Assembly (NCBI GenBank): GCA_030432925.1
Contig: JAUILT010000009.1
Coordinates: 1 to 50,488 of the forward strand
Direction of reading: 5' to 3'
Origin: Bdellovibrionia bacterium
Lineage (GTDB): Bacteria; Bdellovibrionota; Bdellovibrionia; Bdellovibrionales; UBA1609
Length of the DNA stretch: 50,488 nt
The notes below the pieces were generated by a model. The model was not told the origin of the DNA and ran no database searches. It saw nothing but the letters and a program-made list of their open reading frames with translations. Positions 43,886 through 48,312 of the stretch are shown here, one piece after another. The translations under genes were made by a program, and so were the position numbers. Position 1 is the first letter of the stretch; each line of letters starts with the position of its first letter.

Positions 43886-44274
43886 AAGTAAATCCCCTGT
43901 TCTTTTTCATATGGCTCATCGGTTTTTATTTAATCGAAGTTTATGCTAGGACAGAAAATAGACCATATATACTCATCCAAACTTCTGAAAAAAAACAAAT
44001 GGCGTTTGAGGATGATCAAACCAAGATACAAGTCATAGTGGCATATAGCATAGTGTGAGGTCTCATAGTGATCCACCTCCCCAATGGCCTCGGGCCACAA
44101 AATGAATTAGGCCTAGGAATGAGTTCTTATAACTAAAACAATAACAAATAGTATTATTTTAGTAATTAAAATTGTAATTTAGATGTAATATATTGCGATT
44201 AATCTACCGAATAAGAATATAAAGTTATTGATTTTGTAGTTACCCTGTCTTAATTTGAGACCTTGAGGTGAGAT
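43886..44274. other. AT-rich intergenic region upstream of the toxin-antitoxin-like operon
   Basis: I find no gene. Three direct CATAGTG repeats lie at 44034-44070. The last 150 bases are very AT-rich and probably hold the operon promoter, but no unambiguous -35/-10 pair is seen. Confidence 0.55.
44034..44070 (+). repeat. Three CATAGTG direct repeats at exact 15-base spacing
   Basis: CATAGTG occurs at 44034, 44049 and 44064, each start exactly 15 bases after the last. The array lies about 205 bases upstream of the HTH gene that opens the operon. Iterated half-sites like this often bind repressors or initiators; the HTH protein at 44275 is a candidate ligand. Confidence 0.45.
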
Positions 44275-44613
44275 ATGGGCCAATCAGGACCAAAGAAGTT
44301 TAAAGGTAAAGAAGATATCATTCAGTTCCTAGTGAAAGTCAGCAACAAGTTAGGAATAGAGCGTGATGAGCTGGCAATTCGACTTGGAATTTCTAAGTCG
44401 GCCTTCTATGGGTACATCACCCGCCGTGAGATCCCCTCACGCTCGTATAAGAGGCTTGTGGAGTTATATGAAAGTGAAGACTCAAGAGAGGGGCCCAAAG
44501 CTCAACCAAGCGGCTCTGTCATGCTCTCAGAGGCCACTCTTGATGAACTCATACACGAGATAGAAAGCCGTGGTTGGCTTATTGATTTACGGCGAAGGGC
44601 TTCAGGTGAATAA
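44275..44613 (+). CDS. HTH DNA-binding protein heading a toxin-antitoxin-like operon
   Basis: 112 residues; ATG follows GAGGTGAGAT. The N-terminal half has a lambda-repressor-like HTH (LGIERDELAIRLGISKSAFYGYITRREIP). The C-terminal part (TLDELIHEIESRGWLIDL) is helical. Its TAA is directly followed by the GTG of the nucleotidyltransferase gene. Likely the operon autoregulator; binding could involve the CATAGTG repeats. Confidence 0.8.
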   Translation: MGQSGPKKFKGKEDIIQFLVKVSNKLGIERDELAIRLGISKSAFYGYITRREIPSRSYKRLVELYESEDSREGPKAQPSGSVMLSEATLDELIHEIESRGWLIDLRRRASGE

Positions 44614-44937
44614 GTGGAAAGGTTAGGTGTGGCTGAGTTTTTAAATGAGTTTCAAGTCTCTGAAAAAGAGCTGACCCGCCTTTGCCGAGAATTGGATGCT
44701 AAATCATTGTCTGTTTTTGGTTCGGCTTTGAATGATAATTTTATCAAAGGTAAAAGTGATCTTGATTTTTTAGTAGAATTCGACGTTTCTACATTTGATC
44801 TTTTCTTTAATTTTCGTGACCGCCTGAGCCGCTTATTTAAGTATGAAAAGGTTGATTTGATAACAGTGGGATCACTGAAAAATAACATTGTAAAAGAAGA
44901 AATATTTGCTTCTAGGAAAATACTTTATGCCGCTTAG
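44614..44937 (+). CDS. MNT-type minimal nucleotidyltransferase (MntA-like)
   Basis: A 107-residue protein with GTG start. The motif VFGSALNDNFIKGKSDLDFLVEF gives the GS-x-D-x-D signature, and the third acidic residue is in EKVDLIT. In MNT-HEPN modules such enzymes AMPylate and silence the HepT RNase. No HEPN gene follows; instead a 64-residue helical protein is encoded, so the partner is unclear. It overlaps the next gene by 11 bases. Confidence 0.82.
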   Translation: MERLGVAEFLNEFQVSEKELTRLCRELDAKSLSVFGSALNDNFIKGKSDLDFLVEFDVSTFDLFFNFRDRLSRLFKYEKVDLITVGSLKNNIVKEEIFASRKILYAA

Positions 44938-45121
44938 CCAGATAAATCATAAAAACAAACTGATTTCTGAAAAGGCAAAAAAGAATCTAAAGCTTGGCGA
45001 AGGTCTTTTTAATTTTGCATACAAGGCTAAGTCATTTCAATTGAGAAAAAAGTATCCACAATGGGACGAAGAAAAAGTTCATCAGCGCACAATGGAGCTT
45101 ATTGAAAGGGGTTGCTCTTAA
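44927..45121 (+). CDS. Small helical protein, putative antitoxin-like partner
   Basis: 64 residues beginning MPLSQINHKNKLISEKAKK. Core LGEGLFNFAYKAKSFQLRKKYPQWDEEKVHQRTMELIERGC is matched by a second gene at 47966-48187 (LAEDLFNFAYSVKYHQLQKK ... QVHEHTLLLIERGC). Comparable small proteins, as I recall, precede AbiEii-like nucleotidyltransferases in many genomes, and here one indeed follows with no gap. Probably the cognate antitoxin; no biochemical role is known to me. Confidence 0.7.
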   Translation: MPLSQINHKNKLISEKAKKNLKLGEGLFNFAYKAKSFQLRKKYPQWDEEKVHQRTMELIERGCS

Positions 45122-45667
45122 ATGATCCCTTTTATTGAAACCTTTCAACGGGCTGTCCGCAGACTTGAAGATGCAAATATTTCTTATGCTATTGTTGGCT
45201 CGATTGCCTCAACAATTTATGGGGAGCCACGGTTAACTTGTTACCTGGATATCGTAGTAGATGTGAAATCACAACAGGCTTCTTTTTTAAAAGAGCTATT
45301 TGGGCCCCTTGAGTACAGCTGCCCACCTATTGAGATTCTTGGCTCAGAAATTAGTAGTTGTGGGCAATTCAGTATTTTACATAATTCCACGGGACTTAAA
45401 ATTGACCTCTTTGTGAAAAAAGATACAGATATTGAACAGTCTTGTTTTGATCGTCGGCAACAAATTGAAATTTGGGACGGTTTTTTAGCATATCTTGCTT
45501 CACCAGAAGATGTTATTATTAAAAAGTTAAAGAGTTTTTATGAGGGCGGCTTTGAAAAACACATACGAGATATTCGCGGTATTTTGGTAAATAGTGATCT
45601 TGATCAGGGATATCTAAAAAAGTGGGTAGCGCAGCTTGATTTAGAAAATGAGTGGAAGAAAGTTTAA
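45122..45667 (+). CDS. AbiEii-like nucleotidyltransferase with altered active-site motif
   Basis: 181 residues. The N-terminus (ISYAIVGSIASTIYGEPRLTCYLDIVVD) aligns with the usual GSxAS-xYGEPR-xTxDIDLVVD motif of these enzymes, but the first Asp of the Asp-x-Asp pair is Tyr here (YLDIVVD). It could be inactive or use another residue. Later LKIDLFVK and EDVIIKKLKSFYEGG match the family. The start abuts the stop of the small partner; its TAA shares a base with the kinase ATG. Confidence 0.75.
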   Translation: MIPFIETFQRAVRRLEDANISYAIVGSIASTIYGEPRLTCYLDIVVDVKSQQASFLKELFGPLEYSCPPIEILGSEISSCGQFSILHNSTGLKIDLFVKKDTDIEQSCFDRRQQIEIWDGFLAYLASPEDVIIKKLKSFYEGGFEKHIRDIRGILVNSDLDQGYLKKWVAQLDLENEWKKV

Positions 45668-46260
45668 TGGAAGAGAAAAAGCAAATTATTTTTATAGCAG
45701 GACCTAATGGAGCTGGTAAAACCACCAGCGCCTTGTTACTTCTTCCAGATTTTTTTAAGACAAATGAGTTTGTGAATGCAGATGAAATAGCTCGTGGTCT
45801 CTCGCCATTAAATCAAGACTCAATGGCAGTGAAAGCAGGCAAGTTGATGCTGCAAAGGGTGGATGAACTCATCCGACAAAACAAGTCTTTTGGTGTTGAA
45901 ACCACCTTATCAGGCTCGGGTCACAAGAAAATAATCAAAGAAGCTCAATCCAAGGGTTACTCTGTGGGGATTGTTTTTCTGTATTTAAATTCTGTTTTAT
46001 TGGCAAAAAAAAGAGTGCAGTATCGGGTGACTCAGGGCGGTCACAATATTCCAGAGGACACCATAGAGAGGCGTTACCAGAGGGGCATAAGTAACTTAAA
46101 AAAGATTTATTTGCCATTAGTTGATTGGGCTTATGTTTTTGATAATTCGTCTCAAAGTGAAGAAGGACCGATTCCAGTGTTTTATAAACATGGAGTTGAG
46201 GAAACTGTTATTAATAAAGACTTATGGGAGAAGATAGATGAGCAAGCCAGAAAAAATTGA
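45667..46260 (+). CDS. Zeta-toxin-like kinase
   Basis: 197 residues, start at ATG 45667 (TAATG overlap). P-loop GPNGAGKTTSA, substrate-binding acidic NADEIARGLSP, GVETTLSGSG and the LID-like Arg block RRYQRGISNL. It belongs to the chromosomal zeta-like family, homologous to kinases that phosphorylate UDP-N-acetylglucosamine, though the substrate of this subgroup is not established. Linked to the 46238 gene by a 23-base overlap. Confidence 0.85.
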   Translation: MEEKKQIIFIAGPNGAGKTTSALLLLPDFFKTNEFVNADEIARGLSPLNQDSMAVKAGKLMLQRVDELIRQNKSFGVETTLSGSGHKKIIKEAQSKGYSVGIVFLYLNSVLLAKKRVQYRVTQGGHNIPEDTIERRYQRGISNLKKIYLPLVDWAYVFDNSSQSEEGPIPVFYKHGVEETVINKDLWEKIDEQARKN

Positions 46261-46429
46261 AAATATCGACACTAAAGAGTTGGTCGAAGAAGGAATGAAA
46301 GAAGTCCACAAAAAACTACGTAAGGACAAAATAAAATCGGGAGACCCTCTAGTAGTCAGCAAAGATGGTAATGTTGTTGCCCTTGATCCTGCGACTATGA
46401 AGGAGATCAATAAAAAAGAAGAAGGGTAA
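46238..46429 (+). CDS. Small protein, putative partner of the zeta-like kinase
   Basis: 63 residues beginning MSKPEKIENIDTKELVEE, helical then SGDPLVVSKDGNVVALDP, a strand pair. Similar short genes adjoin many zeta-like kinases and are presumed antitoxins. Its start lies inside the kinase gene, so the two are made together. Last gene of the operon. Confidence 0.72.
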   Translation: MSKPEKIENIDTKELVEEGMKEVHKKLRKDKIKSGDPLVVSKDGNVVALDPATMKEINKKEEG

Positions 46430-46498: not shown

Positions 46499-46651
46499 TC
46501 ACGGCCTTTTAAACGCCTTGAGGTCACTTTCTCCAAGCTTTACGTTCGTTGGAACAATCATCTGTATCGGATCGACCTTTAAATACCCTGCAAGTGTACA
46601 AATGGTAGAAAAACGAACGTCATTCACATTTAAATTCTCAATTTCATTCAT
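46499..46651 (-). pseudogene. C-terminal half of an XRE-type regulator
   Basis: The minus-strand frame MNEIENLNVNDVRFSTICTL continues AGYLKVDPIQMIVPT and ends with TGA at 46499-46501. This matches the second half of an XRE HTH (…IEN…xxRxSTICxLAxxLxVDP). The HTH-start helices are absent; upstream in frame only a stop is met. I treat it as a remnant of a truncated regulator. Confidence 0.5.
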
Positions 46652-46837
46652 GAAAAAAATATGGACTTATTCAATAACTCTCAGGGACTTCAGTTCTACA
46701 GGCGAAGCAAAAAGATGGAGAAAGATCTTAGCCTTGATAAGGTTGAACGGGAGGCTTTGGCAAGATTACGAAATAAGAAGTTGAAGGTCTTGGACCCTCG
46801 CCTTAAGAAAATTCCCGGAGGATACTATTCTAAGTAG
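46634..46837 (+). pseudogene. C-terminal remnant resembling a DUF6973-like toxin-type domain
   Basis: Plus-strand frame ...NFIHEKNMDLFNNSQGLQFY and on to NKKLKVLDPRLKKIPGGYYS, ending at a TAG at 46837. The HE-x-x-MDL-x-NN-x-x-G block resembles, in my judgement, the conserved middle of DUF6973 proteins. Only an ATG at 46661 exists, after the motif begins, so the 5' part has been lost. It overlaps the 5' end of the XRE-like remnant on the other strand, which looks like a deletion junction. Identification is tentative. Confidence 0.4.
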
Positions 46838-47789: not shown

Positions 47790-47966
47790 GGAAAACCTTT
47801 GGTCGGGAGTTAGGTCATAAAAAAAGAGCGCCAAGTCAGAATATTTATAATATTGAGCATATTCCCTAATGGAGGCAATTGATCCGACGATCATATAAGA
47901 GATTTTCTCGCCTTCAATACGCTGGATGGCTTCTTTGAATGTGTCGATGAAAGGCACTGTGGTCAC
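47751..47966 (-). pseudogene. Truncated AbiEii-like nucleotidyltransferase
   Basis: The first 32 residues (VPFIDTFKEAIQRIEGEKISYMIVGSIAS) match the N-terminus of the nucleotidyltransferase at 45122. Then the sequence leaves homology (IREYAQYYKYSDLALFF...) and runs into the 3' end of the EEP gene, so the catalytic core is gone. GTG start at 47966 overlaps the stop of the small partner (TAGTG), the same arrangement as the intact copy. A deletion remnant. Confidence 0.7.
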
Positions 47967-48187
47967 TAGGCACAGCCTCGCTCAATCAACAGCAGGGTAT
48001 GTTCGTGGACCTGTTTTTCAGACCAATCTGAGTGTTTTTTTTGAAGCTGATGGTACTTGACACTGTAGGCGAAGTTGAAGAGGTCTTCGGCGAGCTTGAG
48101 TCTTTTTTGGATCTTCTGGGTCTCAAGGTCTGTAGGTGTTTTTGGTTGTTGTGGTTTGCTCTTCGCTGTTTTTCTCATCTCTTCCAT
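47966..48187 (-). CDS. Small helical protein, second copy of the antitoxin-like partner
   Basis: 73 residues, homologous to the 44927 gene over LKLAEDLFNFAYSVKYHQLQ to LLIERGC, with a longer Lys/Pro-rich start (KTAKSKPQQPKTPTDLET). It appears intact although its nucleotidyltransferase partner is truncated, which fits an orphan antitoxin retained after toxin loss. It lies 38 bases beyond the 3' end of tRNA-Leu. Confidence 0.7.
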   Translation of the reverse strand: MEEMRKTAKSKPQQPKTPTDLETQKIQKRLKLAEDLFNFAYSVKYHQLQKKHSDWSEKQVHEHTLLLIERGCA

Positions 48188-48225: not shown

Positions 48226-48312
48226 TGGTCCGCCAGAGAGGACTTGAACCTCCACGTCCTTTCGGACACTGGTCCCTCAAACCAGCCTGTCTACCAATTC
48301 CAGCACTAGCGG
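48226..48312 (-). tRNA. tRNA-Leu (GAG)
   Basis: 87 bases with encoded CCA. Acceptor 5' CCGCTAG pairs with CTGGCGG; D-loop GGAATTGGTAGACAGG; anticodon arm CTGGT-TTGAGGG-ACCAG, giving anticodon GAG; a long variable arm (TGTCCGAAAGGACG) as in class II tRNA-Leu; T-arm with GGTTCAAGTCC. The accessory genes begin immediately after its 3' end, a common site for island integration, though I find no repeat of the tRNA end in the window. Confidence 0.95.

Follow-up and report, generated by a model that had tools for sequence, protein, structure and literature searches.

Six abutting genes, among them a putative regulator

Positions 44275-46429 of the window (the whole stretch of 50,488 nucleotides that was analysed, a single contig out of the 172 in a 3.04-Mb draft genome from the order Bdellovibrionales, whose relatives are Bdellovibrionales MAGs) carry six open reading frames on the same strand, their ends abutting or overlapping throughout: an HTH regulator, an MNT-type nucleotidyltransferase, a 64-residue helical protein, an AbiEii-like nucleotidyltransferase, a zeta-type kinase and a 63-residue protein, P63. 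In order, the junctions measure 0 nt, an 11-nt overlap, 0 nt, a 1-nt overlap (TAATG) and a 23-nt overlap, and such spacer-free or overlapping junctions make co-transcription of all six genes very likely, presumably as one transcript from a single promoter upstream of the HTH gene. As members of conserved families, the six are not chance reading frames. Reading frames, junctions and family matches thus bear out the original prediction of six tightly packed genes of toxin-antitoxin type; its family calls were right in outline, with the qualifications that the HTH match is weak and that the AbiEii-like gene of the window has no AbiEii match in Pfam over the cut-off.

The first gene (44275-44613, + strand) encodes a CI-like protein of 112 aa that matches Phage_CI_repr at 19.4 bits, below the Pfam cut-off of 22. 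Its relatives L029 (60% identity) and L030 (46% identity) precede unrelated genes and adjoin an uncharacterised 141-aa gene; both have a recombinase-like gene, called by eye, in their vicinity, and L030 has a cytosine methylase nearby. Neither is accompanied by an MNT gene, and on that ground the HTH protein was rejected as a conserved MNT partner. Upstream of the operon, a scripted search located an AT-rich imperfect palindrome (44132-44163) that pairs at 11 of 12 arm positions; when the region was resampled 300 times under a Markov-1 model, 4 resamples reached its score, so that as a candidate operator it is suggestive only. The HTH protein, which appears to be of mobile-element type, may repress the operon promoter by binding there.

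The second gene (44614-44937, + strand) starts with GTG, with an in-frame alternative GTG at 44629, and matches both NTP_transf_2 (30.8 bits against a Pfam cut-off of 21) and PDC-S09 of PADLOC (1.8e-22). Its GS-DxD motif, common to this protein and to MntA of the MntA-HepT system, is intact. In MntA the motif reads GSX10DXD (PMC7641770), whereas the window protein has one extra residue (GSX11DXD), as does a HEPN-less relative, L140. Unlike in MntA-HepT, no HepT adjoins the gene: its neighbours are the HTH and MenA genes and no HEPN gene was found beside it, just as had been predicted, and the only HepT match over the cut-off in the genome lies on another contig and covers 44 positions. Most other MNT relatives in the phylum adjoin HepT or NTase_sub_bind genes, mostly as MNT-HepT pairs. 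L140, the nearest relative (53% identity), is a solitary MNT with GSX11DXD and no HEPN in its locus (L140:1498-1884, - strand); a hidden HEPN was considered there and rejected, the adjoining 61-aa reading frame matching nothing and the other neighbour being a 23S_rRNA_IVP protein. The two may represent a HEPN-less branch of MNT proteins, and the window MNT is perhaps a member of such a branch, or perhaps the relic of an MNT-HEPN pair. A sequence search of the PDB with the MNT and zeta proteins returned nothing at 0.01.

Two toxin-antitoxin-type pairs

Gene 3 (44927-45121, + strand) encodes a 64-aa protein resembling the antitoxin MenA1 (Rv0078B). The Rv0078B-related antitoxin family PF18993 is matched by 17 of the 27 members of the gene 3 family, the window protein itself scoring 16 bits, below the cut-off of 27.1, and the best PDB match of the family profile is the MenA1 chain 8an5_C, albeit a weak one (E=0.029). 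Gene 4 (45122-45667, + strand) encodes the AbiEii-like protein; the AbiEii family, which the window protein fails to reach, is reached by 9 of 10 family members scanned. Among solved structures its best alignment is to MenT1 (8an4; phmmer 0.011, profile 5.5e-6). An AlphaFold2 model (pLDDT 86.6) returned MenT1 structures as all five of the best Foldseek matches (8an4_A, 1.6e-9, TM 0.78), indicating the same fold, although identity over the fold alignment is low, at about 21%. MenT loci were drawn from 84,980 species genomes and the best 80 of 130 relatives were kept; in 60 of these 80, spread over many phyla, a MenA gene is recognisable. In Mycobacterium tuberculosis, MenA1 (Rv0078B) shares an operon with MenT1 (Rv0078A), an enzyme that transfers nucleotides to tRNA (PMC10435456), and there, as in the window, a short helical antitoxin lies directly upstream of a tRNA nucleotidyltransferase of DUF1814/AbiEii type. 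Profile, predicted fold and gene order therefore identify genes 3 and 4 as one MenA1/MenT1-type pair, in which the 64-residue protein is probably the antitoxin of the adjoining gene. The original prediction had counted both as parts of a larger composite; they are better described as a pair of their own, in which MenA would be expected to do what its counterpart does in MenAT1, namely block the toxin and bring about the toxin's auto-phosphorylation. A relative of the window MenT at 62% identity, likewise with a MenA of its own, occurs in Bdellovibrionales RBG_16_40_8.

Three MenAT1-type pairs, from three different phyla by their record titles, sit in CRISPR-cas loci: L071:737-3242 has the order cas6b-MenA-MenT-cas1, L080:1944-4837 has a cas5-like gene and later MNT-MenA-MenT-cas1, and in L068:3775-5333 MenA-MenT lies one gene before a cas1-like gene. 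Cas1 is matched by 3 of 62 downstream neighbours of MenAT loci among the best 80 of 130 relatives. It is possible that MenAT1-type toxin-antitoxin pairs guard CRISPR-cas.

The window MenT departs from its family at the active site. It keeps an intact frame and the equivalents of T39, D43, K137 and D152 of MenT1 (as T39, D43, K135 and D150), whereas D41, without which MenT1 neither binds nucleotide nor is toxic, is replaced by Tyr, so that the catalytic set D41/K137/D152 reads Y41, K135, D150. MenT1 ceases to be toxic with any one of the changes D41A, K137A and D152A (PMC10435456), and its D41A and K137A forms neither bind nucleotide nor auto-phosphorylate (PMC11375011). At the position of D41, 77 of the 79 homologues aligned carry Asp and the other 2 carry Gly. 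Three further near-invariant positions, S66, S84 and F144, also differ, so that the window protein is changed in 4 of 31 such columns, against a homologue mean of 0.66 and none in its nearest relative. Compared with that relative, it also shows less similarity to 77 of the 79 other homologues, though these comparisons are not independent of one another. The window MenT is a member of MenAT1 by descent, but it is probably catalytically dead and no longer a toxin, and its pair would be disarmed. Tyr41 is read from a draft assembly, and the 172 contigs of that draft lend some weight to an assembly or sequencing error, in which case MenT would be an ordinary active toxin of MenAT1 type in an otherwise chance stack. 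This is very unlikely, as a single error would not give the differences at S66, S84 and F144.

The last two genes form a second, already known kind of pair, in which the gene of a zeta-type kinase is overlapped by that of a partner downstream of it. The kinase (45667-46260, + strand; 197 aa) matches Zeta_toxin at 2.7e-12, its 47 bits standing well over the Pfam cut-off of 22.3; the P-loop is kept, and K18, D39, R116, R120, R135 and R136 are invariant in an alignment of 11 kinase sequences. P63 (46238-46429, + strand) scores 34.5 bits (E 1.2e-9) on a profile of other zeta partners built without it, the best of 2000 shuffles reaching 10.4 bits. A zeta gene followed by an overlapping gene of 55-62 aa occurs on plasmids of Geminocystis, Parabacteroides, Nostoc and Synechocystis (cyanobacteria and Bacteroidota), annotated as 'zeta toxin family protein' and 'hypothetical protein'. 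The window kinase is 42-47% identical to the nearest three of those aligned, the partner gene likewise lies immediately downstream and overlaps, and the partner family is matched by profile; nothing essential differs, the window pair merely ending a longer operon. A similar zeta gene with a small downstream gene is found in Bdellovibrionota genomes and in 3 of 5 viral-contig loci. What had been predicted to be part of a composite is accordingly a pair that is widespread on its own. With epsilon/zeta, PezAT and Rv0367c-Rv0366c the window kinase shares the Zeta_toxin domain, the P-loop and the conserved aspartate, but its presumed antitoxin is encoded downstream and cannot be recognised as epsilon or PezA: no epsilon or PezA antitoxin was found upstream, where the neighbouring gene is MenT, and no Pfam epsilon family matches P63. 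P63 would restrain the kinase, which, once freed, would be predicted to phosphorylate a nucleotide-type substrate and so stop growth. On the Synechocystis plasmid pSYSG (L039:1197-2192), an NTP_transf_2 gene overlaps zeta and zeta overlaps a 59-aa partner; these genes adjoin a restriction specificity gene and make up an independent neighbourhood of MNT and zeta.

A rearranged edge and a second MenAT copy

Downstream of the operon the window bears marks of rearrangement. Only 0.2 kb after P63 lies the C-terminal remnant of a DUF6973-type gene (46646-46837, + strand), comprising the last ~60 residues only and 55-60% identical to the C-terminus of the genes in L152, L153 and L155. The window lacks the N-terminal part, which rules out an insertion that split a DUF6973 gene and left its two halves in place, and indicates that the edge is a deletion or a replacement rather than a clean insertion. 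A longer DUF6973 paralogue lies on contig C64, and where DUF6973 is paired with an EEP gene, in the three family members G008, G001 and G013, no such stack of toxin-antitoxin genes lies alongside. On the opposite strand at 46499-46651, a reading frame of 50 residues resembles, on inspection by eye, the last part of an XRE-type HTH protein; it has no Pfam match.

A second MenAT copy (47868-48187, - strand) and a tRNA gene lie within 2 kb of this edge. The second MenA (47966-48187; 73 aa) is found with the MenA query at 1.9e-17 and with PF18993 at 2.2e-4 (21.6 bits, below the cut-off). It is accompanied by a truncated MenT (47868-47966; E=2.6e-5, 60% over residues 2-31) that is broken after about 31 residues, and the copy lies some 40 bases from a tRNA-Leu (gag) called by ARAGORN at 48226-48312 (- strand).

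The inactive MenT might have been kept for a purpose: to titrate MenA in the manner of a decoy, or to serve the orphan MNT as its partner or substrate, making genes 2-4 a new three-gene regulatory module. The second MenA 3 kb away with its broken MenT, the intact frame of the operon MenT, its retained T39, D43, K135 and D150 and the intact GS-DxD motif of an MNT that has no HEPN are all in keeping with this. Alteration of several near-invariant columns, however, suggests decay rather than a new constraint, and the combination occurs in one genome only, so that such retention is very unlikely. It is likewise highly improbable that the orphan MNT, the dead MenT, MenA and the zeta/P63 pair under a CI-like regulator constitute a single functioning control circuit, so far in this lineage only.

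Distribution and origin of the composite

The original prediction placed two nucleotidyltransferases and a kinase in one composite under a single regulator. Among the 80 MenT loci (the best 80 of 130 relatives), an MNT-type gene occurs somewhere in 4, adjoining MenAT in L080 and L068, and zeta, P63 and HTH genes in 0 of 80 each, which does not support that claim. No MenT was found beside the zeta relatives examined, and the six-gene composite is absent from the 18 other zeta loci of the phylum sample and from phage and viral collections. The genes that flank MenAT match 70 or more Pfam families, mostly singletons, and mostly differ from locus to locus. In everything searched, the order is unique to this genome and the pairs occur elsewhere only separately, the outcome that the original prediction had itself named as refuting it. 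On this distribution across MenT loci, zeta loci and phage and viral collections, a six-gene system was rejected. A phage origin was also rejected: MenT has no match in phages or viral contigs, and MNT has one weak match, in a Gordonia phage.

A single integrated system for defence or addiction, in which the HTH protein responds to a trigger and both nucleotidyltransferases work jointly with the kinase, would fit the single transcription unit without spacers and the one shared candidate operator. Against it stand the want of any other instance in the 80 MenT loci (best 80 of 130), the 18 zeta loci and the phage and viral collections, the loss of a catalytic residue from MenT and the conservation of each pair on its own; the distribution already largely refutes such a system, which is very unlikely.

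The locus is, with good confidence, a chance tandem array of independently mobile and known modules, partly decayed: an HTH regulator of mobile-element type, an MNT without a partner, one pair of MenAT1 type and one of a zeta kinase with P63, all of which would have accumulated at a rearranged site. It counts against a chance stack that at three of the five junctions (HTH-MNT, MNT-MenA and MenT-zeta) unrelated modules meet without a spacer, which could reflect selection for co-expression. It also counts against it that MNT-type genes adjoin MenAT in L080 and L068 and zeta on pSYSG, so that neighbourhoods of this sort are not exceedingly rare. All the modules belong to known kinds; only their juxtaposition is unusual, and in the data searched it occurs in this genome alone.

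The locus is a tidy case of how a compact multi-toxin operon can be put together from unrelated modules at the edge of a rearrangement. MenAT1-type pairs were described from 21 menA1 genes (PMC10435456); the survey finds them across many phyla, in at least 60 loci. An AbiEii-like gene beside a small gene of unexplained role can prove to be a MenAT1-type pair.
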